Shown: positions 1-62,600, counted from the stretch's first letter. The stretch is DNA of 64,000 bases from Tubiluchus corallicola (GCA_030141605.1 JAQGDQ010000187.1:327501-391500); one strand, 5' to 3'. The notes: generated from the sequence alone by a model not told the origin. Made by a program: numbers and translations.

Positions 1-2893
1 ACGTTAAACAAGTTCTGCAATCCAAATTACACATAACCTGAATGAAGGTTTTTACTGACTTCGACTCTCTTAAAAACAAAGCAAAATATTCCAACCTGCC
101 GGATATAGTCCATACTCTTATTGTGCAATCCAGACTAGAAGAAACTATTATCATCTTTTTGGCGTCAATGTCCAAATGTGTTACGGCTTGCGTGTGCGCC
201 CTGAAAGTGTTTAGCAGAGGAGGCGCATCCGTGTTTACCTTTCTTTCTTTGTCCAAGCAAAGTAATTGCGATTTTTGTTTCTCAAAATGCTGCACTTTTT
301 TCTCCCTCAAAAAAGAAAACCTGTCCTTTTTCAAGAACGGAAAGCCTTCGTCTTGTTTCTCGCTCGTCTTGTGCAGCTCGACCTTTTTCTTGGTGTCCAG
401 TTCAATACAAAATTGACGAATATTCCAGGTCTTAATGTAGCCGTAACTGTCGCCAACAATCAGGTACTGCCCATCGGGGTCTGTAATCATAGCTAGGAGT
501 GATTGGTCAGGCTTATTAGCTCCGTAAAACATACCTAGCAAGCCACCGTTGGGGTGAATTGACCATGCTTGCACATAACCGTCAGCACCTGCAGCAAGAA
601 GGTTAGCAGTGTTCTTGTGTTGTTTTCTTTTGTGAAGAAACACAAGTTTTTCCACGGCAGGAATGCGCATCTTCTCAAAAGATGGGCCAGCTAGTCCTGC
701 CGTTTTTTCGGCTGCACATTCACAAATTGGAGTAGTCCTCGAGAAACATGTGCCTACTAACGTTCTGGCAATTACAGTCATGGAAGTGAACGACATTGGT
801 CTAAAATTGAGTGCAGCATTGAGAGTTGTCACGACGTTACCGGTCTCCAGTGACCAAATAACAATGTAGCCATTGTAGTCTGACGTTGCTACTGTACCCG
901 GCTCTAAAAAATCCATGCTTAGGATGTCATCCGTGTGCCGACACGGCCATTCCAAATTAGGTTCACTTCCCTCCTCATAGTCAATGAAGACTGAAACTTT
1001 CCTGTTCCAACCTGCAACCAAAATCCTCTGCCGTGGGCATATAATGCAGGTAATTTCTTTATTCCCGCTTGGTTTTAGTTTTCGTAAGCAGGCGCCGTTA
1101 TTGAAGTTCCAAATTTTGACCAAACCTTCTTTTCCTCCCGTGAAAAGGCGTCTATATGTGGGATCAAAAGTCATGGCTGTAATTTCGGTAGCCTGGTCTT
1201 GACCTCGTTCAGAGGTTTTGTGAACGTCCAAAAATTGCATGACTTTTTCGCCAGTGGCAAGGTCCCATACACTAACTATAGATCCGTGACAGCCACTGAC
1301 CACATAATTAAATAGGTGGTTGTAAAGTGCTGAAACTACAGGCCTATTGTGAGACGTGGTAATTTTTTCTAGTTCCTTAACGTGAGCTTTCCTTTCCCAA
1401 GTCACTAATTGTGTAGTTCCGAGGACTAGCATTTGCAGTCTTGGATTATAATAACCAGCTGTCACACTATACATTCCCAGGGGAGTGTTTCTGTTCTCGA
1501 TAAGTTGTAAGCAAGAATGGTGCCTCATATCCCAGATGCGTATGTTATTACTCTTGCAGATGCTAATAATTTGCTCTTTAACAGAATCCACTAGCATCTT
1601 ATTTATTTGCGCTCCGTGTCCATACAATACCGTATTTGGTTTTACTGTAACGTACGGGTTCCATATACGTACGTTTCTGTCTAAACCACCCGTCACTAAT
1701 ACATTTGTTACTGAGCAATAATCGAAACATTTGATACCCCGTCGTACATCAAAACGATAGCTAACTTTCTTCTTGCTACCTGTTATGTCACCCAAATACA
1801 TGGAATTAACATCCGTGGCTGAGCAAGACACGAAACTGTCCAGTTCGCGGCAGTACTTTACTTGGCACACCCAATCTCCATGCAGCTTATGTATTTTATT
1901 CGCCCGTACACCAGAAATAAGCCCCTGGAGAAGGGCAGGAAAAGGTATTTTACGAGCCTTTGATTCTTTACTAGCACCAGGACCAAAGAGTCCTGCACTC
2001 ATACACTCTGTAAACTTGATTGACAAAATGCTACCTCCTGTATCACCCCAAATCAGTATTGCTTTATTCATCTCGGCAACATCAAACCAATAATGCATTG
2101 TCATTGGGCAATCCTCAAGCGCAGCTATCTGGTACTTTTTCTCAAATTTGTTCGCCGTTATATCGTAGATTGAAATGTCTCTTTCTGTGGAAGATATTGC
2201 AATCATGTTCACATTTGGCAGGCATATCAGATCGGTTAGCCACAGCGATTTTGAGCGATTCTTATCAGGTTCAAGTGTATGCGTTTTGACGTGGGTCATA
2301 TCTGTTGTCCAGAAGTTCACCACACCTTCCTTGCTCATTGTAATGTACCTGCCAACTTTATAATCAATTTCATCGCTCGCCGTGCTCCTTAGCTGAGATG
2401 TTAAATTTGGCAAAAAGTCTATTTTGTTAATTTTATCCCTGTGCGTATTTGGTATCTGACGGCAAGGATTTGGAAATGGTGCTTCCGTCGCCATGCTGGC
2501 CATTGTGTCCTTTTCTTGATATTGCAATAACATGAATGAAAGATATTCATCCCAGTCCACAGTCCCATCACAGTTAGTGTCAACTTTCATGAAAATGATC
2601 TCTAGCTCGTGTTCGTCAATCGGGCAGCCCATTGTCTTCTGCATCGCTTCACGAAATTCATCAATGTCTAGACCGCCACCTTTGTCGGCGTCTGCTTCCT
2701 CGAAAATACTCTGCAAAGCCAGCAGGTGGTCATTGTTCATCTGATCTTCGAGTCTCGCTGCATCTGAAGCCTGTCTTTTCATCTCTTCCGTAATACTTTT
2801 TCTGTGACCGGATAGTCGAGCAGAACTCGGCGGTGACATTTGAGTGGCTGAGAATCTGGCTATTTTTTCTTTCTGAATTTTCGTCAAAGCCAT
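1..2893 (-). CDS. EF-hand and WD40-repeat protein (WDR49/WDY/EFCAB8-like), 5' part, single large exon
   Basis: The frame is open without a stop from the ATG at 2893 to the left edge (964 codons). Residues 68-79 (DADKGGGLDIDE) and 105-116 (DTNCDGTVDWDE) are two EF-hand loops; the second is fully canonical. From about residue 170 onward many WD40 blades follow, recognisable by their ends (VRIWN, IRIWD, VSVWD, VKIWN, IVIWS, VQAWS, IKTWN, IRVWT), enough for two beta-propellers. EF-hands followed by WD repeats is the layout of WDR49, EFCAB8 and Drosophila WDY. The molecular role of that family is poorly known; a calcium-responsive scaffold is inference. After the blade ending IRVWTISG, a possible donor (AG|gttgga, exon end at 96) fits better than continued reading, so the last 31 codons may be intron. 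The start is the first in-frame Met, with an AG acceptor-like site 12 nt upstream. The gene diverges from the DOCK gene. Family certain; exact orthologue not. Confidence 0.88.
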   Translation of the reverse strand, partial: MALTKIQKEKIARFSATQMSPPSSARLSGHRKSITEEMKRQASDAARLEDQMNNDHLLALQSIFEEADADKGGGLDIDEFREAMQKTMGCPIDEHELEIIFMKVDTNCDGTVDWDEYLSFMLLQYQEKDTMASMATEAPFPNPCRQIPNTHRDKINKIDFLPNLTSQLRSTASDEIDYKVGRYITMSKEGVVNFWTTDMTHVKTHTLEPDKNRSKSLWLTDLICLPNVNMIAISSTERDISIYDITANKFEKKYQIAALEDCPMTMHYWFDVAEMNKAILIWGDTGGSILSIKFTECMSAGLFGPGASKESKARKIPFPALLQGLISGVRANKIHKLHGDWVCQVKYCRELDSFVSCSATDVNSMYLGDITGSKKKVSYRFDVRRGIKCFDYCSVTNVLVTGGLDRNVRIWNPYVTVKPNTVLYGHGAQINKMLVDSVKEQIISICKSNNIRIWDMRHHSCLQLIENRNTPLGMYSVTAGYYNPRLQMLVLGTTQLVTWERKAHVKELEKITTSHNRPVVSALYNHLFNYVVSGCHGSIVSVWDLATGEKVMQFLDVHKTSERGQDQATEITAMTFDPTYRRLFTGGKEGLVKIWNFNNGACLRKLKPSGNKEITCIICPRQRILVAGWNRKVSVFIDYEEGSEPNLEWPCRHTDDILSMDFLEPGTVATSDYNGYIVIWSLETGNVVTTLNAALNFRPMSFTSMTVIARTLVGTCFSRTTPICECAAEKTAGLAGPSFEKMRIPAVEKLVFLHKRKQHKNTANLLAAGADGYVQAWSIHPNGGLLGMFYGANKPDQSLLAMITDPDGQYLIVGDSYGYIKTWNIRQFCIELDTKKKVELHKTSEKQDEGFPFLKKDRFSFLREKKVQHFEKQKSQLLCLDKERKVNTDAPPLLNTFRAHTQAVTHLDIDAKKMIIVSSSLDCTIRVWTISGRLEYFALFLRESKSVKTFIQVMCNLDCRTCLT

Positions 2894-3348
2894 ATCTACG
2901 GATTTCTATTTGCAAAAAAATAATTGTGTGGATCTGCTTTGGCTTTTGACCTACGAGACGTGAAATTGCATTATGCGTGGTGTTTGAAGAATCATGCGAA
3001 ATTTTGTTGCTATGCGCCTGTTGCTACATAATTGTGAGGAAGAAAATCAACTCTTAGTTACTATAATGGAGCTAAGCTTGCCAATGCCATATGAATCCTG
3101 AAATGCCATCAATGAGAATTTTCCTAACAGTGTGCAATTCTTTTCTAGATACTGATTGGCAATTTAAACATTAATAAATTCAACATTAATTGATCCATAT
3201 TTAGTCAACGGTGCGCACTTGTGCATTTTGTCTTAGATCAGAACATTTATGACGTAATTATTATCAAACTGGGCCTAGGCCTATATATTACATTCTTGAT
3301 ATCGCAGTCACCGGCTAGCGTCAAAACGATACACCAGCATGAACGCGT

Positions 3349-36900: not shown

Positions 36901-39900
36901 TTGCAGATTGCATTTTTAATTGTAGCTAAATGCAGTGAATTAAAAACAAAATGGTAGAACTTTTTTATTGGTATACAAAATACGAAAGTTATGTTTTATA
37001 TATTCTTGTTAAAGTTTTACTAGGTTGTATGTCGTAATTTATTTTGGAAATTAGCACAGTGCAAAATGCCGACGAGATATTAATTTATGTAAATTTTCTC
37101 TAATAACTGCAGATGCGTTTAACGTCATTTTTTATTTTTACTAATTCTTTGTTTTCGTACACTTTATAGTTACTTGTCATTTTCTTTTTGAATGCGTGAC
37201 AGTGCCAAGTTAATACTCTGATTCTTATTGAAATGATTCATCTACTTGTCTGACACAAAAATTTTTAGGTTTGTGCTGTGCATGTGACATGATGTTTATG
37301 GCCAACAAAATAATTCCATGTATAATTTATAAGCAAGACTTTTGACTTGTTGGAAGTTCTATTAAAGACAAAGCAAAATTTTATTTCATGATTACTTGTT
37401 CAGGTTCATAATAGTAATGGCAGGTCAACATTGGGCTTCAATTTCTTCTTAAAGTCCTTTTAACCTGTATGTATAAGAGCATTGGTATGTTTCAAAAGAT
37501 TCATGTGTATTATGATCTATAGTGTTTAACTTTTCTTTCAGAGTTACTGCTTGGATGGTGGCAAAATTGTTCTGATTCAGAACTATTGGATTTCTTTCGT
37601 GTGCTGGAACTGTCATTGTTGAATTTCAGATATTTAGGAAAGAAGAAATTGCACATGCAACAGTATGTACTGTTTATAATTTAATCGACTGTTTTTATTA
37701 TTAAATAAATATTTTGAATTTTGGCAAGTTACATTGACTGTTATGCTATTAGTGTAAGCCATTAAAATTGTGTTATGTTATTATTTGTAGGGCATTTTCA
37801 GTTATTAGTGGACAAAAGAAAAGTCAAACCCTACCAAACAGAAAAACGGCACCTTTACCACCCATTCGTACTGTTAGTACTTACAGTGACAAACCTGGTG
37901 TCGGTACGTCATATTTGGTTATTTATTAGCTTGAGATTTGCTAAACTACAAAGAAATTTTGTTCAAGTTTTAAGAGAACTATTTGTTTAAACATAGATTA
38001 ACTGTGAGTATTTTGCAGCATAGTAATGTTTAGCTGCAAATGTAAGTTTTATGTCAATTTGCAAAACTTAAGTCATATTATTCTATTAGCTGCTTCAGCT
38101 GTAAGCATGTATATTGATGTATTGATTTGTTTTTGATTTCTTTTTAAATCTTACCTATTTTCAGTACCAATCTCTGACGAGGTAGACACTTACACATCCT
38201 CACTGGCAGCTAATATGTGCACAGAAGTAGGCCTTATTATCTTAGATACCGTTGCTCTTTTTACCTCACAGTTTAAGGTAACTAAAATTATGTATTGTTA
38301 CGTTGATGTACGATAGAAAATGTGGTGACTGAAATTAATTTTGGACTAGATGCATTATACAAAAAGAAAATTTTATTTTGGCATCTCCTAAAATCATTGG
38401 AATGTGTGATAAAAATGAAAAACCCTTACCCACTGCGTTAACCAGAAATACAGATGGGCCTATAGTTCTTGTCTTTTGGAAAAGGCTGTTTTTTATTTTG
38501 TGTGTTGCTTCATTTCCCATACAGACGCACTTTCAACTCATAGGTTTTTTTCTATGGATGTTTAGTTGTTAAAACAAAAGAAATTGAATTAAATTAAGCT
38601 TTTTTGCTTGAAAGATAAGTGGTTTTATTCTACTTAGTACTTTTATTCTAAAAAATTTATGCACTGTGTAACATAATGCGACTGTTGTATGCGAATATTC
38701 CAGAATCAACTCCAGTTTCAGTCTGGTGATAATACATTGATGCGCAGAGTTTTCGACATCTACATGCTGTACTTACAGACTGGGCAGTCGGAAAAACTCT
38801 TAAAGCACGTTTTTGCGGCCTTGCGATGTTTTGTGAATAAGGTTAGTAGTAATTTGTCATTTTGACGAAACATATTCTAGAAAGTACAAAAACTGTGATA
38901 ATAATTGTCATCAATAACAACAAAAAATTTTAGTTTTTGCTCTGTTGATGTCAAATGTGCTGTGTTTAAATTTTATTGTTCATCTTTTTACTGTTCTAAC
39001 CTGTAGTTCATTTTTGTTCTTGGTACTATTAGAAAATTAAAAGTGGCCTACTATTTTGCATTGACAATTTTTTTTGCTTTTGCTTACAGTAGGGCATCAC
39101 AGCATCTGGGATATGTTCAGAGAATGGCTGTAGTAATTTTAAAGTGATTTTGCAGCAAAATTTTTTGGTTTCGTCAGTGGGTTTGAAATTCAAGCAGTCA
39201 AACAAATTAAATTTGCAATTTTTATCTTAACGCTAATGTCATTTTAGCTTCGAATATTTTTTATCCATTTAATATTTACTAATCTAATATTTAGCTAGCT
39301 AATTCTTTGTCTTTTGTATAAATTTTTATTTTATTTGTCTTGTAGTAGTATTTTTGAATAGAGATTTTTAAATTTTTTTGCTGGCTGTGATACTTGTTAT
39401 TTACTGAAATAACTATGAAATAAATAAATAAAATAAAAACTTTCAATTTGATTTTGGCTTTTCCAGAAAGGACAAAATCAAATTGAAAGTTTTTTGCCCT
39501 TTACAAGGTACAATATGTATAAAAATAATAATAATGTGAATGGATGTAATGGTTACATTGGAGCAAGACCCTCATTATTTATTAGCCACCCATAATTAAA
39601 GTCATAAATGTGAGATACTTCGGTTGATTACAAAAATTGCTTAGTAACTTATACCATAAAAAGTTTATCAACTTACTCTACTTTATCAACTCTATCAATC
39701 TAATCTACTTTTTAATTACTCCACAAAGGCCCAATTCATGTTTCTTTCAGTGTAGTGTCATCTAGTGTTTTGTGGCAGTTATTGTTTAGCTGGTGAAGGT
39801 CTATACATACTGCTTTGTCAGCAGTAGTAAAACATTTAAAACTGTCATTTGCTTTTATACTGTTTTGTTGTTTCTTTATTTTTAAAACTTTTAGACAATA

Positions 39901-48900: not shown

Positions 48901-51854
48901 TTGCAACACATTTTTGGCAAAGCCTGCTGTTAATAAATATCCCACTGAGCATGTGCGAGGTTTAAAAGAGATGTTCAGGCAAGTATACAATAATGTCTTA
49001 TGCAGGAACCTTTTGAAAATGTGCACGTAATCAGTTTACAATAACTTAACTTTGTAAATTTAAGAACTGTTTATTTTTGTTGTTACAAACATGCTTCAGA
49101 GATGAGTTTGTAATGTTTTTACAGATTATTTGTACAAGCCTGCAGAGAAGCTCTGGACATCAATGAAAAACTTATTGGTGCTGAGCAGCTAGCTTACCAC
49201 AAGTCCATGAAAAACAATTATAATGACATGACTGAGAAACTTTCTGTACATATTGAAAAGGTGAGTGCCCTGCAGATAGTAAATGATCTAGTTTTGTGGC
49301 AGTTAAGTTAGGAGGTGACATTTCAAGTGTTAAATGTCAACTTCAGTGATTATTGTATGAATTAGCGGAAACTGCAGTGTCAAATTAGCAGTTTACGATG
49401 TCGAATATCATCTACTAGTGTATAACCAGTACATGTTCATTTTACGGAAGCATTTTCGCAAGGTAAAATGTTTACATATTGTAATCATCATTGCACTGCA
49501 ACAAGTTTTCTAGTAATAACTAAATATTGAAAGCTGAGTGTTTTAACGTGCTGTCTTTAAACATTTGTTACCTGAGTAACTTTTTGAATCAGGTTAGAAC
49601 AACAATTGAAACTTCTGAGTAAAATGTACTAGTTTATATGGACTGCATTTGAAAAGTAATTTCTTCATCAAAGGAAAACTCAGAATGATTTCATTTACTA
49701 GGAGCATTCTATTGTCTTTTGATTTGTTTGTACAGGCTGTGCCTAAAAATCAGCAGCCGCTCACAACAAGGAGATAGAATCCTTACTTTGATGATGATGA
49801 TGTTCAGCTAATTTAACTGCTTTTTAATGTTTTTAACTCTTCGAAAGTTTTAAAAGATGAAATCATTGGCATTTAAGAAATAGTAGTATTGCAGACTCAC
49901 AGTTTTGCTTCTGTGTCTTGCAAATGCACATTTTTTTGGTTTTTGTTTTGGCTTTTACACATTTTGATATTTGAATCAATATAGTTTCTCTGTTAGTGGC
50001 ATATTTGTTATATATAAATGAAAGAGGCAGGATTAATTTTTTTCTGCAGGTATTTGGTGCGCGCCAGTCGCCTGTATGTCGTCCACCTCCTAGTGTAGCT
50101 CGTAGTCAATCTTCAAAGCCAAAGCGCCAACTGTCTCGACGGTCACGGCCCCCACCACCCCCTCCTCCAGTAGTTCCTAAAAAATCTGCCAGTGATTCTT
50201 GTCTGGTTTCTAATGATGTGTTTTATCATCTGGATGGAAAACCTTCATCTCCAGAAGAGCCCGTCAGCAAACCCATAGATTCAGTTCTAGACACACTCAT
50301 TCTAAAACCCTATGACATAAATGATTGTCCTGTATATGAAACTGAAGTGCAAACAATGTCAAGACCTAGTGAAACTGAATCGAGAGAAGCTGTGACTGTC
50401 ACTCCGCTTAAGAAGAAAATGACAATGCTTGTGGAAGAATCAGACAGTAATGATAATGAACTAAAATTGAACACCATAAACCAAAAACAAAAAACCTCAA
50501 CTACTAAAGAACCACGCTCAATTCCTGGTGTTTGTGATAGTCGACGTTTGCCTGATACATTTGCAAGTGCAACCCAGTATTGTGACAGGAAATTAAATAC
50601 AGAAATAATTGATCCAGATCCAAAAAAGCCTTGTTTCTCCTTAGACCATGAAATCTTTAAGCAAAAATCACATGTATTGGGACCAGCAGGTGGTACAGAA
50701 ACATTCAGCAGTGGTAAATGCGCAACAGCATCGAGTGATTCTGATGAAGAGATAGATGAACCTGGCACACGTTTATAATGTACTAAACCTTTATGTAAAT
50801 GTGTTATCGTTGTAACTGTGCCATACCATGCAGCTTGCAGTTTTAGTTCAAAGTTGAGTGGCTCGTAACATTTGAAATTTTTTATTTGTTGGGATTTGGG
50901 TTTGCCTGCTACATTTTTGTATGATTAGATGCTGTTGCTGACCTGCCTGCTGTATGTTTCTGTTGTTTTCCGTACGCTCCTTATTTTTGTCATTATAGTT
51001 TTTGCGTTTAGTTGTTCATATCTTATTGAATTTTTATTTATAGATGTCAAAAAATAAGCACTTGGTTCCTCAAAGCCAGATGTAATTGTCAATTGAGTTT
51101 TGCTCCTTATTATTACAATAGCATTTCTTGACGTTTCTATTTTTTAATTTTTTTAGAATGGCATTTCCCAAATATAAAGCACATAGTAACAATAGCATTA
51201 GGTTGATTTCATGAATGTTGAAGCAGTTTTTAATAAGAATAGTGTTTTGGTATTTATTAAAAGGTTTTAATTTTAAATTTTGCTGTGGGTAAATGTTTCA
51301 TCAGTTGCGCTGGTTAGTCATGCTTGGCTTGATGTTATGTTACACATTGATATTCATTATATTTGCAGCTTAGTTTTTTAAATGGATAAATGGTTACATA
51401 TACATGTATGAAGTTAAAAATTTTGCATTGATTTTATCTTGTGCCTATATTTTTCTGTATTTTTTACAATTACAACATCATTTCTTTAACATATGTCTTG
51501 CAAGAATGCTGAACAAATTTCTCTTACAAATGTGTTCTTTCGAAGAGTGTAGTAGTTCGTGTTTCATTGTAAGTGATGAAACCCACTCTAGAGACTCTAA
51601 TCACTCGTGATATCTGGCAAAGTTATAGCTGATTTAGTCTGACTTTATCTTTATAATACCTTGTAATTGTTACTGTATACTTCATATTTTTTCAGTTAAA
51701 TTTGAATTACTAGATCTGAATGACTTGGTTTTACAGTTTGTTTTGTTCCCTTTTTTAGATCTATCCAACAGAACAGAGCATGTTTTTGAAAGGAAGTCCA
51801 CTACAAGTGTTCAACTACATCAGCGCTGTGACAGGGTCATCGTCAACTGTATAA
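5106..51854 (+). CDS. DOCK9: DOCK9/10/11-like (Zizimin, DOCK-D) Rho GTPase guanine nucleotide exchange factor, complete
   Basis: 48 common coding exons sum to 6,270 nt (2,090 codons); with the conserved last exon the protein is 2,121 residues, close to vertebrate DOCK9 (about 2,070). Domain order: conserved N-terminus (1-155), PH (about 170-279), DHR-1 (about 640-822), helical/armadillo-like middle (823-1647) and DHR-2 (about 1625-2085). The family loads GTP onto Cdc42 and Rac at membranes: PH and DHR-1 bind membrane, DHR-2 catalyses exchange. The PH domain separates DOCK-D from the other DOCK groups. Invertebrates usually have one DOCK-D gene, so it is probably pro-orthologous to DOCK9, 10 and 11. 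All introns are GT-AG and in phase except a GC-AG intron after exon 47 and an uncertain exon 7/8 junction. Long introns hold transposons; the others show nothing beyond AT-rich DNA. Three alternative last exons follow exon 48. Exon coordinates are in the block entries below. Confidence 0.95.
8119..8150. repeat. (TA)16 microsatellite in DOCK intron 2
   Basis: Sixteen uninterrupted TA units about 240 nt upstream of exon 3. No other structure was seen in this 1.7-kb intron. Confidence 0.97.
10540..10674 (-). mobile_element. fragment of Tigger-like element, reversed (copy 3)
   Basis: The segment matches, in reverse complement, the first 130 bases of the complete element at 14537. Shared blocks include TTATGC(A/G)GAGTTA, CCGACAGTTTTTA and the terminal CTTACTG followed by TA. 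It is more diverged than the other two copies. The opposite end was not found, so it is probably truncated. Confidence 0.7.
11238..13917 (+). CDS. DOCK9: DOCK exons 5-8: PH domain and following linker (residues 156-335)
   Basis: Exons: 11238-11348, 12940-13071, 13204-13333 (end tentative), 13751-13917. Exon 5 opens the PH fold with [10 protein letters not shown]; exon 6 gives [11 protein letters not shown] and [11 protein letters not shown]; exon 7 gives [19 protein letters not shown] and DSWIKIL with the invariant PH tryptophan. This domain is diagnostic for DOCK-D and targets phosphoinositide membranes. Exon 8 encodes [20 protein letters not shown], a predicted helix matching the post-PH helix of DOCK9. 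The exon 7/8 join is the only awkward one: the frame of exon 8 needs a phase-1 donor, and the in-phase GT is after CGA A at 13333 (gtctgt). Better-looking donors at 13348 and 13362 would break the frame. Confidence 0.88.
14537..15780 (+). mobile_element. complete pogo/Tigger-like (Tc1/mariner superfamily) element with TA target duplication
   Basis: The 1,244-bp element begins CAGTAGGTGCCGCTTAATAG. It ends with the inverted complement (CTATTAAGCGGCGCCTACTG) and is flanked by TA on both sides. Internal remnants at 15217-15435 translate to [20 protein letters not shown] followed by [12 protein letters not shown]. That is the C-terminal DDE_1 motif of Tigger/pogo transposases; the Asp in QPCDQG is probably the last catalytic acidic residue. 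The element is too short for a full transposase, so it is an internally deleted, non-autonomous copy. Confidence 0.9.
15217..15435 (+). pseudogene. Tigger/pogo transposase remnant (C-terminal DDE_1 part)
   Basis: An open stretch of 72 codons contains [12 protein letters not shown], the diagnostic end of the DDE_1 catalytic core, then a helix and an IIRT/YYRR motif. The N-terminal DNA-binding part and the first two acidic residues are missing. A homologous, more decayed remnant lies near 26880-27010 in the second copy. Confidence 0.85.
15856..18786 (+). CDS. DOCK9: DOCK exons 9-13: region between PH and DHR-1 (residues 336-595)
   Basis: Exons: 15856-16002, 16607-16825, 17259-17464, 18018-18146, 18707-18786. 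Exon 9 encodes [20 protein letters not shown] and exon 10 [20 protein letters not shown] followed by FHFDIND. Exon 11 holds [14 protein letters not shown] and [16 protein letters not shown], the near-invariant R-L-G-x-Y-R-M-P-F-A-W block. Exons 12-13 give [11 protein letters not shown] and [15 protein letters not shown]. These match the conserved inter-domain segment of vertebrate DOCK9-11. Intron 8 (13918-15855) carries a complete Tigger-like transposon; intron 10 holds a short GT-rich repeat. Confidence 0.94.
17132..17187. repeat. GT/GTGC-rich simple repeat in DOCK intron 10
   Basis: Imperfect GTGTGC/GTGCGT units about 70 nt upstream of exon 11. On the minus strand it gives only spurious His/Thr/Ala runs. 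Confidence 0.9.
19945..22870 (+). CDS. DOCK9: DOCK exons 14-18: DHR-1 (C2-like, membrane-binding) domain (residues 596-822)
   Basis: Exons: 19945-20132, 20721-20879, 21631-21788, 22225-22312, 22784-22870. The block runs from [18 protein letters not shown] through [44 protein letters not shown] and [10 protein letters not shown] to [10 protein letters not shown] and [15 protein letters not shown]. This is the DHR-1/C2 beta-sandwich of DOCK proteins, which docks the exchange factor on phospholipid membranes. Exon 18 has two acceptors six nt apart (after 22783 and 22790); the upstream one keeps the Y-S-G-P match to vertebrate proteins. Confidence 0.95.
23183..25924. mobile_element. TTAA-flanked inverted-repeat DNA transposon, non-autonomous, 2.74 kb
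   Basis: TTAA at 23179-23182 and TTAA at 25925-25928 flank inverted termini: GAACGAGTCCGCGAGAGCAC at the left and its near-complement ending GGACGCGTTC at the right, about three mismatches over 28 nt. A second matching inverted pair lies about 400 nt in from each end (around 23566-23590 and 25501-25527, core CCGCAGTGGG), so the arms are long, decayed inverted repeats. A TTAA target is typical of piggyBac and Kolobok; no transposase is recognisable inside. Base composition is less AT-rich than the surrounding intron. It fills most of DOCK intron 18. Confidence 0.8.
26139..33634 (+). CDS. DOCK9: DOCK exons 19-27: first half of helical middle region (residues 823-1187)
   Basis: Exons: 26139-26228, 29268-29339, 29740-29925, 30377-30574, 31475-31621, 31771-31854, 32380-32488, 32767-32796, 33456-33634. 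Landmarks are [98 protein letters not shown] and [11 protein letters not shown], all strongly conserved in DOCK9-11. Structures of DOCK proteins show an armadillo-like helical solenoid here. Exon 26 is only 30 nt. Intron 18 (3.3 kb) holds a 2.74-kb TTAA-flanked element. Intron 19 (3.0 kb) holds a Tigger copy and a telomere-like repeat element. Confidence 0.94.
26412..27310 (+). mobile_element. second Tigger-like copy, internally deleted
   Basis: About 900 bp in intron 19. The right end CTATTAAGTGGCACCTACTG is followed by TA; the left end AATAGGTGTCACTTAATAGA is decayed in its first bases. Subterminal blocks match the 14537 copy: the TCAGTAATTGACTCAAATAA block, the CCTTTCCTACTTT block and the transposase tail near 26940-27020. 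It has the same orientation and is shorter in the middle. Confidence 0.85.
27731..27856. mobile_element. small inverted-repeat element with internal telomere-like CCCTAA repeats, copy 1
   Basis: Inverted ends TTGCAATTCCCCACACAA and TTGTGTGTGGGGAATTGTAA enclose ACCCTAACCCTAACCCAACC-type repeats and an AACCTTAAGCCTAATCCGCT block. The overall design is that of a MITE. A second copy, inverted, is at 36021-36117 in intron 30 of the same gene. Confidence 0.75.
30024..30279. repeat. 76-bp direct repeat spaced 180 bp apart in DOCK intron 21
   Basis: Copies at 30024-30099 and 30204-30279 share TTGACAGATTCATAGTGCCT and the rest of the unit, with about four differences. Each copy ends in TTTTTATTTAG, an acceptor-like sequence. 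Neither gives a sensible exon. Confidence 0.9.
33922..37903 (+). CDS. DOCK9: DOCK exons 28-33: serine-rich variable linker within middle region (residues 1188-1440)
   Basis: Exons: 33922-34130, 34473-34552, 35721-35841, 36736-36851, 37542-37662, 37791-37903. The segment starts with the conserved [20 protein letters not shown], then becomes low-complexity and Ser/Thr/Asp-rich ([24 protein letters not shown]). It regains similarity at [20 protein letters not shown] and [18 protein letters not shown]. Exon 33 encodes [20 protein letters not shown], retaining the K-S-Q-T-L-P phospho-motif-like block of vertebrate DOCK9. Disordered, likely phosphorylated linkers sit here in the vertebrate proteins. 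Confidence 0.92.
34961..35108. repeat. 148-bp GT/GTGC/GTGG-rich tract in DOCK intron 29
   Basis: Alternating purine-pyrimidine DNA built from GTGT, GCGT and GTGG units. Both strands appear open only because the repeat lacks stop codons (Val/Cys or His/Thr runs). It is not a gene. Confidence 0.95.
36021..36117. mobile_element. telomere-like inverted-repeat element, copy 2 (inverted)
   Basis: In reverse complement it reads from TTTACAATTTCCCACACAAT through GCTAACCCTAACCCTATCCC to AACCTTAATCCACTTCATAA and the terminal TGTGTATGGGGA. That is the same order as the copy at 27731. The last bases of the second inverted end are lost. Confidence 0.72.
36309..36364. other. compound palindrome/hairpin in DOCK intron 30
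   Basis: The perfect 14-bp palindrome GGGCATTAATGCCC is followed by a second arm, GGGCATTAGTGGCCATTAAT plus GCCC. Together they fold as a hairpin with two small bulges. The surrounding intron is AT-rich and has no repeats of this kind. Confidence 0.8.
38165..43358 (+). CDS. DOCK9: DOCK exons 34-39: second half of helical middle region (residues 1441-1647)
   Basis: Exons: 38165-38277, 38704-38841, 40507-40563, 41920-42045, 42602-42715, 43287-43358. Landmarks are [55 protein letters not shown] (57-nt exon 36), [20 protein letters not shown] and [18 protein letters not shown]. The last leads directly into DHR-2. The acceptor of exon 37 sits in a 41-bp tandem duplication that copies the splice site itself (41870-41951). 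Intron 35 contains a perfect 21-bp hairpin. Confidence 0.93.
39436..39493. other. perfect 21-bp hairpin with 16-nt loop in DOCK intron 35
   Basis: The left arm 39436-39456 starts AAAACTTTCAATTTG. The right arm 39473-39493 is its exact reverse complement. The loop is 39457-39472. The arm length is that of a small RNA duplex, but the AT-rich stem has no mismatches and there is no flanking lower stem. A short inverted-repeat element is the alternative. Confidence 0.85.
41870..41951 (+). repeat. 41-bp tandem duplication spanning the exon 37 splice acceptor
   Basis: The unit TTTTTGCAGACATTAATATG (first 20 nt shown) at 41870-41910 is repeated with four changes at 41911-41951. The second copy holds the real acceptor (exon starts 41920). 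The first copy holds a decoy acceptor at 41878. Because 41 is not a multiple of three, use of the decoy shifts the frame and meets TAA in the duplicated segment. Confidence 0.92.
43736..49260 (+). CDS. DOCK9: DOCK exons 40-48: DHR-2 catalytic exchange domain (residues 1648-2090)
   Basis: Exons: 43736-43937, 44605-44714, 44849-44971, 45277-45390, 46324-46464, 47149-47359, 48102-48292, 48878-48978, 49125-49260. This is the best conserved part: [111 protein letters not shown] and [17 protein letters not shown]2012 at the start of exon 47 (QVHAGP) corresponds to the nucleotide-sensor valine described for DOCK9, so the domain should be catalytically competent. Known DOCK-D substrates are Cdc42 and, for some members, Rac. 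Exon 47 ends at a GC donor. Confidence 0.96.
45774..45796. other. 23-bp near-perfect palindrome in DOCK intron 43
   Basis: ATATGAGTGAA, one T, TTCACTCATAT: 11-bp arms around a single centre base. No function can be assigned. Confidence 0.85.
48979..49124 (+). other. GC-AG intron between DOCK exons 47 and 48
   Basis: The donor is TTCAG|gcaagt and the acceptor ttttacag. Phases (33 codons plus 2 nt, then 1 nt) join R-L-F-V-Q-A-C in register with vertebrate DOCK9, so the GC donor must be real. The match to the U1 consensus is otherwise perfect, as usual for GC donors. Confidence 0.92.
49736..49777 (+). CDS. DOCK9: DOCK alternative last exon A: 13-residue tail
   Basis: A phase-0 acceptor (tttgtacag) at 49735 is followed by [13 protein letters not shown] and a TAG stop. 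It fits the phase of exon 48 exactly and needs only a 475-nt intron. The tail has no PDZ motif. No AATAAA lies close downstream, so its 3' UTR may run on. It could be an infrequent splice product; RNA data would settle this. Confidence 0.5.
   Translation, partial: AVPKNQQPLTTRR
50050..50778 (+). CDS. DOCK9: DOCK alternative last exon B: 242-residue proline-rich tail ending in TRL
   Basis: A strong acceptor (tttttttctgcag) ends at 50049 and the phase-0 frame is open for 242 codons to a TAA at 50776-50778. The start is basic and proline-rich: [16 protein letters not shown], then [17 protein letters not shown], a good SH3/profilin/EVH1-type ligand. An acidic serine-rich middle follows, then [16 protein letters not shown] at the end. 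TRL is a class I PDZ ligand (T at -2, L at 0). Codon content and length argue for real coding sequence. I know of no equivalent exon in vertebrate DOCK9-11 from memory. Confidence 0.72.
   Translation, partial: VFGARQSPVCRPPPSVARSQSSKPKRQLSRRSRPPPPPPPVVPKKSASDSCLVSNDVFYHLDGKPSSPEEPVSKPIDSVLDTLILKPYDINDCPVYETEVQTMSRPSETESREAVTVTPLKKKMTMLVEESDSNDNELKLNTINQKQKTSTTKEPRSIPGVCDSRRLPDTFASATQYCDRKLNTEIIDPDPKKPCFSLDHEIFKQKSHVLGPAGGTETFSSGKCATASSDSDEEIDEPGTRL
51759..51854 (+). CDS. DOCK9: DOCK last exon C: conserved 31-residue C-terminus ending in STV
   Basis: The acceptor ttttttag ends at 51758. The phase-0 frame reads [20 protein letters not shown], then [11 protein letters not shown] and stop. This matches the vertebrate DOCK9/10/11 C-terminus, which has the same I-x-P opening, an L-x-x-F-N-x-I-S core and a Ser-rich end with S at -2 and V at 0. 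This identifies C as the ancestral terminal exon. S-T-V is a class I PDZ ligand. Confidence 0.85.
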   Translation: MYPTEQSMFLKGSPLQVFNYISAVTGSSSTV

Positions 51855-53500
51855 TATTCCTATTGCAATACATTTTGTACATAGACCTGTGATTGATGGC
51901 TAGAACATTACTATTTAACTAATTTCTGATCATGTTTAACATTTAAATTCACTATTTTATGCATTTAAATTCGTATTTTGTTGTGACTGCAATGTGTGTA
52001 GCCCACGCATAATTTTATACTGCCTCATTAGAAGAATGAGCATTGATTTTTAGATCTACCTTCAAGAAGTGTTGATTAGATTTCAATAACAAATCTGTTT
52101 TGCAGGATAGTTTTGCTAGTTGTTCTGTTGCGATTCCCCATTCTCAGTAATAGCAGTTTGTTGTTATCATTAAGGAGGCAGTATTTCAAAAAGTACTATA
52201 ACATGTTTGTGCATAAATGCAAAATCTTTCTATGAACATATGAACGTCTAGACACACAGTTAGATAATGTAAATATTTATCATGGTAATTCCGCATATGT
52301 TGCTTAGTTGGTCCACTATGTAGAAGAACGAGTTGTGTTAAAAAGTTAAGAAACAAATTTATATTGTTGTACTTTGCTACAATGTGTACGTTATTATTTC
52401 TTTTATCCGGTCTTTGGCACAGGAAATGTGACAAATTTAATTAAATGTGACAAATTTTAATTTTGAGTACCAAGTACTCCTGTATGTGTAACCTTATTCT
52501 GTAAACAAAAAACTGGAAGAATGTCTAAATATTAATAATTTAGGTAGTGTCATTCAGCACTACGTGACAACTAATTTTTGTACTCACTAGTATTTGATAC
52601 ATGTGATGTTACTTGCTTTGTTCCTTTTGTACTTAGTAATTCTTATTTATTTAAGTTGCTGTTGCTTGCGCAATTTACTGGATTTAGCGATTTTCATGTT
52701 GCTTAAGTAATTCAATGAGTTTTTCAAAATGTCAAAAACAAAATTTTAAATCATCTATTTTCAATTACTGGAATCATATTGGTAGTTTTCTTTTATCGTG
52801 ATTTTTAGATATTTTTTATACAAACAAAAAATTTTATGCCATGACCTGGTGCTTGTATTCAAGTGAACTTTAAAATCTTTTCATTTTTGATATGTGCTAA
52901 CTACATGTGTGAATTGTTTGTATGTTCTGTTAGCTTTAAATAGAAATCATCGTAAATTTTTAAGAGCTGACAGTTATATAATAATTGTATTAAAACCGTT
53001 TCCAATCACATACCATACAGTTTGAAGTGGTTATTCATTTTTTTACTGCATAGAGACAGTAGCATAGAGTTTACATGCGATTAGTCTGTACTAGCATTTG
53101 GAATTTTTTGAAAAATCTGTTATCTGTTATAATCATGATTCTAACTGATGTTTCAAGCTTCTTTATAAGATTTTGAATATATTGTGAAAAAAATTATGTA
53201 ATGCATGTGGTCTACAAATCTAATGACTATGCTGTTGTTAGCGGAATTCAGTTGCTTTTTGCGCACGTCAGGAGGTGCTTCATTCATGGTTATTTGGAAA
53301 AACGTGATCATTTAGAAACTCGACATTTGTACACTTTGCCATTCGGCTTTGGGAGAACTATTGAACACGCAAATACAGTGCAGATAAAACGATCAAATCG
53401 TATTGAAGCAGTTTAAATTTTCTGACTCGCATATTTGACGTTGTTTGTGATCAATGCAGCAAAATGAATTGTTAGTATATTATTTATATTTTTAAATAAA
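51855..53500 (+). promoter_or_regulatory. probable DOCK 3' UTR and polyadenylation signal
   Basis: After the exon C stop no further coding frame is seen. The first canonical AATAAA in a good context is at 53495-53500 (TTTTTAAATAAAATAACTG). This would make a 1.6-kb AT-rich 3' UTR. Earlier variant signals could also be used. Confidence 0.4.
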
Positions 53501-58510: not shown

Positions 58511-59026
58511 TAACTGGAGTAACGGAACTAGATAAAGCAACTTTCACATGATGTTCATTTACATGATGCCGATAGCACTATAGACATCAACGGTGATTCA
58601 TTTTTGAGTGAAACCTGCATCATGCGCAGTTATAATGTCATAATAACCATTTTAATTGCTAATGCGGGAATCATAATGGTAGTGTAACATTTACTTATCT
58701 GTAAATACGTCGCAATCAGCGGGTAACAATCTACCAAATTAATCTACATTTCAGGTTGTTTAATTTTGCTAGCTATTTTTAATGTATTGCCTTGTGTCTA
58801 AAAAACGATTGTATATTTGAATAAAAAGTGTCTTCAATGCTTTTAATTCTAACGTTTACATTTTTGTAGCTAATAAATTAAATGCAATAATAATGTCCAT
58901 TTTGTGAACTTTCGCAATATGAACAATACATGCTCGATGTGCGATATTTGCTACTGCTGTAGGAGCTCGAGAATGTTTCAACGTTTATGCAGAACTTATG
59001 GTTCTGTTTTTTTCAGGTATGCAAAG

Positions 59027-59596
59027 ATGGCGTGCAGTAAACTTGCATTGATTTTAACTTTATTGTATCTAGTCAAAGCTGATATTTCTTTAACTATTCT
59101 TCACACGAATGACGTTCACGCAAGAATAGAACAAGCAGATGAATCTGGCGGCCAATGTAGTGAATCAGAGGCCAATGCTGGTGAATGCTGGGGCGGATAT
59201 GCTAGAATCATTACCAAGGTATGCAGATCATTCAGCGGCTTGTTTGTCAAAGTTGTCAAACTGTTTCAGATTGAAATTTAATATTATACCTTCAAAACTA
59301 TTTTTATGGCCGCGAGCGGCTGCGCTAACTACCTATAATTAATTTTGTGTTAGCTACAGCTTTTGTTGCCTGTGGTTTTGATTAAGCAAAATATTTTTTC
59401 AAAATTTTCATAAAAGTTGCTAATTCATGATCGAACGTGGAAACTGCCACATTGATTTCTTACATTAAGATGCTTGTTCACTAATTTAGCCAACTAACAA
59501 TGCGAAGATTTTTTTGTCAAAAGGAAAGCACCATAATTTGATTTTGGATGTGTGTACGTAAGCATCTGCTTGTTCTTCATGATGATGATGATGATG

Positions 59597-59637
<41 letters not shown>

Positions 59638-62600
59638 GATTTATTTTCTAAACTATGTACAAAATACATTCCCTCTATTTGTAGGGATATGTTTAAAATT
59701 TCTAAAAGCATTTACAAATCAAGCGTTTTAAACATATTCTCATATATATATATAATTTAGAATCTAACGCATAAGACATAATAAACGACAACGATCATAT
59801 ACAATAGATATAGTTACAGATTCTAATCCATTACAACATACATAATGAAAAATAACGAACATATTTTAATACATAGTAACATAGCATTACACACAGTGAA
59901 AAACAACGAGTACAATTATAATAAACGTAATTACCAATTCTAATGCAATTACACATAATCATAAATAAAAAAAAGCAGTATATAGAAAACACGACGTGAG
60001 TTGTAAAATTAACGTCCAACAAAATGTCAATCATTCTCAGTCAAGTTCTGCTGACTGTCCAATCAACGTGCATATTTTTCACACGCCCACGGAAGCGGTT
60101 CATAACCTCGTTTTTCGGGACATGAGCTGTAACTATCTATTGTCTGTATATGTTATATTCTTATGAAAAATGCTCAACTTTTCATTAGTTTGCAGGAGAG
60201 AAAACAGATTTCTTTTGGCTTGGTTTACTAATGTACATTCAAATAATAAATGATGTACAGCACGAGGGCTTAATAAGCAGTTACATGTACTATTAGGAGC
60301 ATGCGCTATTTTGTACAAAAATTGCTTAAAAGTTTCCTTCTTAAGTAATAAACTGAAAATTAACACTTCTACTTTTCTCTTGCCCAAAGGGACAGGGAAT
60401 TGCAATGGCGCATTAAAAACTTTTATCGGGTTAATACTGGTGTTTGTACATTGGTACTTGTAGCGACATCTATTTTTCCGCATATGGGACGCATAATTGT
60501 CATTGTCACTTTTCTTGTATTGAAACGTAGGTGGAGGTAAAGATGCTATATCCATGTTACGCCAGTTTATATCCTTACTGATTTTTAAAAATTCGCCTGT
60601 ATAGGCTAGCAATTGACATAAAAAGTGATTATGGTTAAGATGAGGATTTACATAACTATTTATCAAGTGTAATTTGACAATATCATCATTTGAGGCAGAT
60701 AGTACTTTCAGAATAAATTTTGTAGCTACACTTTTAAAGATTATGTGGAGAGGTCGCAGACCACAGATCATCTCTAATTTTTCACGAGACGGGTGAAAAT
60801 TACAGCCTGTTCCAATTTTCATAACATCAAACATTAGATCATCGAAGAAGCTATGTTTGCGCACCTTCCAAGCTGGAGCACGATACAAAATTATACGTAA
60901 TACAAGGGTTTTAAAGAGCAAATTTACAGTATGGAGACTAAAACCTTTTTAGAGGGTACATATTCGTTTGATTTGTAATCATCTGTGTCATGCTTTTTTC
61001 CTGACGTTATTGATTTGTAGCTCAAATGACAACTGCTTGTCTATAATAACACCTAGCACCTTACTGCTCTGCACGTAATTAATGATTTGATTCCCAATTT
61101 TCAAAATGACATTTTGGTTTTCCGTGCCAAAAGGTATAACCTCAGTTTTACGAGGTGAGCAGTTAATAACCTGTCTCCATTTTCTACATCAGATATGAAG
61201 CCTATTTCATCACTAAAAGACTCGTTTTCGGCGCCTGCATGAACGCGCAAAAAATCATACTACGTGTAAAGTTTACAAAATACAGAGGCGGCTGCTCAAA
61301 TTTTGTATACAGAATTTTTTTGTTTTTGAAACTGTCTTGTAAGACGGTACTAGGTAACTCGTTTATTATTAGACATCTAATTATATTACTCCTGCTCCTT
61401 TTTATGTACAGTCCTAAAGTGGCCCGTCGTCCGTGCAGCACTCTGTAGAACCAGTAACTATTGGGATATAGATGCGAAACGTCGCACTAACTTATTGCAC
61501 GCATGTTTTTCGAATTTGGTATAAATTGCTTTGAAGTTTTAAGGTTACTTTATTACAAGCGTTTGTCCTTTATATAGATCTTGAAAGAGATATACCGTGA
61601 TATACACCTTGAAATTGATGAAATGTTTATCTCTCAAAAACTTATACTTAACTTATTAAAAAAACTATACTTAGCTTTTTGCATTGATAAACAAAACAGA
61701 AACACCGATATCAATTGGATTACACAACTTCCAGATGGACACGAGGTAACATTGAGTGTGACAAATTTAGTACCTTAAAAATTTTAATGTTAAAGGCTAA
61801 AAGCTCGACATTTTGCATCTCCTCTCCTCGCTTTATCGATGATTACGGAACACATTCATTAAATTTTCATCATTTTTCACAAAGCGGACTAGTTTTTGTA
61901 TTTGTCTCTAAAAGGACAATATTCGTCTACTTCAGCACGCAGAAGCTACAAGACTGCATTGCTGAAAGGTTGTGTATCATTTATTTATTGTGTAAATATC
62001 TGTTATTTGTAGTTAAATATACTTGGGGCCTTAAATGTTTTATGTATTAATGGTAGTGCCCAACGTTAAATGATTTGTCAATTTTAGAACACCTCTTGTG
62101 CAAACAACAATCAAAGCAAAAATACAAAAACCGGCTTTCATCTGGTATTATACCGATAAAGATTAGTTCTAAGGAAATAGGAGGGATAATAGAGTTTACT
62201 GGCTTTACTACAAACTAACGCTGAGCGGCTGACTGACTGGTTGGCAGGCTCGCTGGCTGGCTGGTCGGCTGCCTTATTGGCTGACTGACGTCGTGCCATA
62301 AGCAAATGACAAGAAGAAATAAAGAGCAAACGAAAAATATATCAACGTAAAGTTTATTTTTAATGCCAAGAATAGTGACAAGTAATGAAAAATAAAGAAA
62401 AGCACGGTGTTTCAAGGCACCGCTTTGGAAAAATAAGAAAGGGAAAAGTGAAATGTAATTACTAATACTAATTTTCCGCGGAGTTCGACATTTTCATTAT
62501 AATAACATAAGTGTAGCAAAATAATATAATAATACTTGTCAAGTAAATTTTCTTATAGGTGAAAGAAATTAGAAACAGAGATGAAAATGTTATATTTCTG

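Follow-up and report, generated by a model that had tools for sequence, protein, structure and literature searches.

The stretch of DNA analyzed here (hereafter, the window) spans 64,000 nucleotides of the Tubiluchus corallicola genome (GCA_030141605.1 JAQGDQ010000187.1:327501-391500). On its plus strand it carries a DOCK gene, in which Pfam recognizes the DOCK_C-D_N, PH, and DOCK-C2 domains and the lobes A, B, and C of DHR-2. The present study concerns the 3′ end of this gene, where a first-pass annotation had proposed three competing last exons (A, B, and C) behind a single splice donor. Our analysis strongly supports B as a coding terminal exon and leaves C plausible, while A falls within the range of decoy sites. 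We consider it probable that B and C are two alternative last exons and that the tail encoded by B most likely serves the recruitment of SH3-domain adaptors. The features under discussion are listed in Table 1.

The DOCK-D gene and its common donor

The encoded protein has the makeup of a DOCK-D member. It contains the DOCK_C-D N-terminal region (PF11878, 4.1e-31) and an N-terminal PH domain (PF00169, 7e-12), together with DHR1/C2 and the three lobes of DHR2 (PF14429, PF06920, PF20422, and PF20421). When compared with solved structures by phmmer, it matched DOCK10 (1.2e-41) and DOCK9 (5.9e-40) best, far before DOCK8 (2.8e-26), with DOCK7 and DOCK6 also well behind. Therefore, as judged from its sequence, the gene is a DOCK-D (zizimin) exchange factor of the DOCK9/10/11 kind, its separation from DOCK6/7/8 being drawn from the phmmer ranking and not from a tree. 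The gene model consisted of 32 exons from a self-training finder run with a higher exon penalty; as it is incomplete and partly imprecise, it was used for training and as a yardstick only. Genome searches covered the 343 Mb animal assembly.

The last shared exon, exon 48 of the first-pass annotation, closes in phase 0 at a donor of 12.0 bits (GTGAGT after position 49260). Of the 143 residues before this donor, the DHR-2_Lobe_C match stops at residue 138, i.e., 5 residues short of the junction. Therefore, the guanine nucleotide exchange factor (GEF) core is whole whichever tail is chosen. The donor, the acceptors at 49736, 50050, and 51759, and the translations read from them were all found as first annotated. 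Their shared phase 0, however, had also been offered as evidence for three exons, and this argument fails: exon 48 fixes the frame, and behind a phase-0 donor every acceptor runs some frame to a stop.

Table 1. Features at the 3′ end of the DOCK-D gene (positions counted from the first nucleotide of the window)
Feature	Position	Strand	Evidence
Last shared exon, end of DHR-2 lobe C, phase 0 end	49125..49260	+	Pfam, donor score, phmmer to DOCK10/DOCK9 structures
Claimed tail A: acceptor, 13 codons, and stop; probable decoy acceptor	49736..49777	+	Acceptor 9.7 bits
Last exon B, coding part: 242-residue proline-rich tail, predicted disordered, G-T-R-L end, and stop	50050..50778	+	Acceptor, codon score, open frame
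Proline-rich SH3-type ligand in exon B, with RPPPPPP (class I) and PVVPKK (class II, Crk-like)	50140..50184	+	Motif scan
ATTAAA, putative poly(A) signal for exon B	51256..51261	+	Motif scan
Last exon C, coding part: 31-residue tail and stop, candidate ancestral DOCK-D C-terminus	51759..51854	+	Acceptor 9.3 bits, motif
AATAAA, putative poly(A) signal for exon C	53495..53500	+	Motif scan; nearer ATTAAA at 52440

Exon B and its motifs

The acceptor of exon B scores 12.4 bits, above the acceptors of all 31 modelled exons (3.1 to 11.9 bits), and the frame that begins at 50050 stays open over 242 codons. As a null, 66 intronic sites that resemble acceptors and score 7.5 bits or more were each read to their stop; the resulting decoy tails had a median length of 9.5 residues and a maximum of 70. 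Stops account for 6.8% of the triplets in the introns of this gene, and the chance of an open run as long as B is ~4e-8. Likewise, 2000 dinucleotide shuffles of B contained 14 in-frame stops on average and never fewer than 5, compared with none in B itself.

Codon usage points in the same direction. Frame 0 of B scores 0.27 bits per codon, whereas intron windows of equal length score −0.15 ± 0.07 (maximum 0.17). The score flips at the B acceptor, from −0.17 in the 25 codons before to +0.34 in the 25 codons after, and the G+C content by codon position is 0.53, 0.48, and 0.25 (GC1, GC2, and GC3). With a codon table taken from another gene of the genome only, B scores 0.26, as against −0.03 ± 0.04 for the 2000 dinucleotide shuffles, which never exceeded 0.12 and in no case (0/2000) reached B. 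Furthermore, donor scoring found no donor of at least 6 bits inside B. This observation, along with the strongest acceptor, identifies B as a terminal exon; it also rules out B as an internal cassette joined to C.

B is single copy in the genome, and its protein found no match in Pfam, NCBIfam, or the PDB. Thus, a transposon or repeat fragment was ruled out as its source. A search for relatives in genome_contigs and viral_contigs, which by design are without animals, also returned no match. An antisense open reading frame of 204 residues across B, with a score of 0.09 and 4 stops over the exon, is a shadow of the coding frame. It is hardly credible that B belongs to another transcript, such as a nested gene that begins in the last intron or at a separate promoter, a possibility that would detach the tail from DOCK altogether. 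Weaker donors at 49314, 49462, and 49592, upstream of B in the intron, make a private first exon conceivable. However, reading on from exon 48 in phase 0 leads into precisely the frame that is open in B, the codon signal begins at the B acceptor and not earlier, and the interval 49261-50049 contains no coding exon of B's kind.

The B tail is predicted to be disordered, with a pLDDT (predicted local distance difference test) of 47.5 and no secondary structure in a single-sequence AlphaFold2 prediction. Within this C-terminal disordered tail, PVVPKK (residues 40-45 of B) is a PxxPx[KR] motif, and a run of seven prolines like that in B arose in 0/20000 shuffles of B's composition. According to a review of Crk, classic PxxPx[K,R] motifs are absent from all zizimins (PMC2689226). 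The genome, in turn, encodes a Crk orthologue with the arrangement SH2-SH3-SH3. In view of the SH3/Crk-type motifs in B, the statement on the zizimins, and this orthologue, recruitment by SH3 adaptors appears to be the most likely function of the B isoform; all binding partners are at this stage hypothetical.

The proline run had initially been read as an SH3- or EVH1-type ligand. As a motif, the SH3 part holds, given PVVPKK and RPPPPPP, but a scan of B found no match to the EVH1 core [FWYL]PxPP, and the reading of B as an EVH1 ligand was therefore rejected. Similarly, the class I PDZ ends assigned to B (GTRL) and C (SSTV) do fit [ST]-x-hydrophobic, but so do 7.6% of the decoy tails. These ends thus weakly suggest PDZ binding, and the re-routing of the exchange factor between scaffolds proposed on their basis is a hypothesis only. 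A second motif of the PxxPx[KR] type, APLPPIR, is located in a modelled mid-gene exon of the same gene (37791-37903, plus strand).

Exons C and A and the proposed choice of tail

Exon C is plausible as a real last exon. Its translation ends in SSSTV, and its peptide seems to resemble the C-terminus of vertebrate DOCK9/DOCK11, a likeness to be taken as a lead; a text search for vertebrate tail peptides brought up nothing relevant. The motif L.[VI]F..IS (L-x-V-F-x-x-I-S) was found only in C across the six frames of the 64-kb window and fits that C-terminus. Both B and C have an acceptor and a candidate poly(A) signal, which would suit a pair of alternative last exons.

Some observations weigh against such a pair and against the function proposed for B. 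The length of C lies within chance, as 17% of the 66 decoy acceptors give at least 31 residues, and its codon score (−0.08) is not positive and also within chance. Moreover, the PxxPxK motif alone arises in 23% of shuffles of B's composition and is not significant. The lack of a codon signal in C would also suit a tail replacement, in which the lineage has gone over to B alone and left C as a relic; the B acceptor is indeed stronger (12.4 versus 9.3 bits) and first in order. We regard this replacement as unlikely, since C retains both its 31-codon open frame and the sole L-x-V-F-x-x-I-S of the six frames, where decay would be expected in a relic.

Tail A cannot be told from chance. Its length is matched or beaten by 42% of the 66 decoys (at least 13 residues), its codon score is weakly positive yet reached by 27% of its shuffles, and a motif scan found no canonical poly(A) signal between A and B. 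The sites 51157, 51369, and 51696 in the same intron are acceptor-like as well (8.7 to 9.5 bits) and lead to no meaningful tails; they therefore show the local decoy level. Being indistinguishable from decoys, exon A was rejected as a real tail. The original proposal that all three tails are in use could draw on the A acceptor of 9.7 bits and the weakly positive codon score, but the decoys of similar strength, the shuffles, and the missing poly(A) signal before B render it quite improbable.

Thus, the 3′ end of the DOCK-D gene would comprise two alternative last exons, B and C, reached from the common donor at 49260. Splicing from 49260 to 50050, followed by cleavage close to the ATTAAA of 51256 and hence before C, would yield the 242-residue disordered proline-rich tail. 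If B is skipped, splicing from 49260 to 51759 would yield the short, ancestral-looking tail. B and C likely alternate in this manner, and both would be used in mRNA. The GEF core would be identical in the two isoforms, and the docking tail alone would differ. Like the C-terminal tail of DOCK1, the B tail would then draw the exchange factor to SH3-domain adaptors, here through its Crk-type PxxPxK motif, and its extreme C-terminus might in addition contact a PDZ domain.

Neighboring genes and relation to known DOCK systems

Upstream of the DOCK gene, on the opposite strand, an unbroken frame of 968 codons (2-2905, minus strand) runs past the window edge and appears by eye to encode an EF-hand and WD40-repeat protein. 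Downstream, the start of a probable secreted 5′-nucleotidase with a LTILHTNDVHARIE motif, seen by eye, lies at 58877-59281 (plus strand) as a fragment without a Pfam match. At 60133-60948 (minus strand), an open frame of 271 codons looks by eye like the end of a non-LTR (long terminal repeat) retrotransposon reverse transcriptase protein; it too has no Pfam match.

Elsewhere in the genome, a DOCK-C-like gene (L006:1144-7377; G000:C2104:182143-188376) shows DOCK_C-D_N, C2, and DHR-2 with no PH match. It is a single intronless open frame of 2078 codons, whereas the DOCK-D gene of the window is intron-rich. The Crk orthologue (L007:1162-2013; G000:C1543) is likewise one unbroken open frame, and several PDZ genes have frames that stay open over 600 to 2055 codons. 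Intronless versions of genes that normally have many introns may be numerous in this genome. Three contig pairs of the same assembly (G000), C1107/C2057, C902/C2231, and C1807/C2108, gave PDZ matches of equal score, and C1107 and C2057 also share coordinates. These identities suggest that haplotype duplicates were kept in the assembly.

In its N-terminal PH, DHR1/C2, and DHR2, and in its predicted isoforms that spare the GEF core, the present gene is similar to DOCK9/10/11. However, the described isoforms of DOCK9 and DOCK10 differ in the first exon (PMC7551865, PMC4434814), whereas here the difference would be in the last exon, which is proline-rich with a PxxPxK motif. In a review of DOCK structures, it is DOCK-A and DOCK-B whose C-terminal regions are described as proline-rich (PMC8063744). 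The first-pass annotation had held a proline-rich last exon to be undescribed for DOCK-D; this agrees with the literature searched (PMC8063744, PMC2689226), in which we found none, annotated invertebrate proteomes being outside that search. DOCK4 offers a further parallel. Its isoform DOCK4-Ex49 of brain, eye, and inner ear binds the PDZ scaffold harmonin (PMC6176010, citing Yan et al. 2006), and so links a DOCK-gene isoform to a PDZ scaffold, while the PDZ ends in our case are predicted only. In contrast, DOCK4 belongs to the DOCK-B subfamily, and Ex49 is not known as a choice of whole last exons with their own poly(A) sites. DOCK1 (DOCK180, DOCK-A) is alike in motif: behind its DHR2 lies a proline-rich, Crk-binding tail that contains a motif of the PxxPxK type. 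The likeness is one of motif only, and here the tail belongs to a DOCK-D member and would come from an alternative last exon of its own.

Because genes with a choice of last exons are common in general, the present finding is of limited surprise. Nevertheless, we know of no adaptor-recruitment tail in DOCK-D, whose targeting to membranes or scaffolds is, to our knowledge, poorly understood, and of no N-terminal SH3/ELMO system in this subfamily. A more far-reaching idea, which we put forward tentatively and hold to be doubtful, is that DOCK-D gained a DOCK1-like SH3-ligand tail via a lineage-specific last exon, and that splicing and polyadenylation would switch this Cdc42/Rac activator between the ancestral tail and Crk-type adaptors. 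If the proposed choice of tail is true, splicing could re-target DOCK-D in a simple way, by means of a last exon that supplies a proline-rich tail and leaves the GEF core intact, with a possible convergence on the DOCK1-Crk arrangement.

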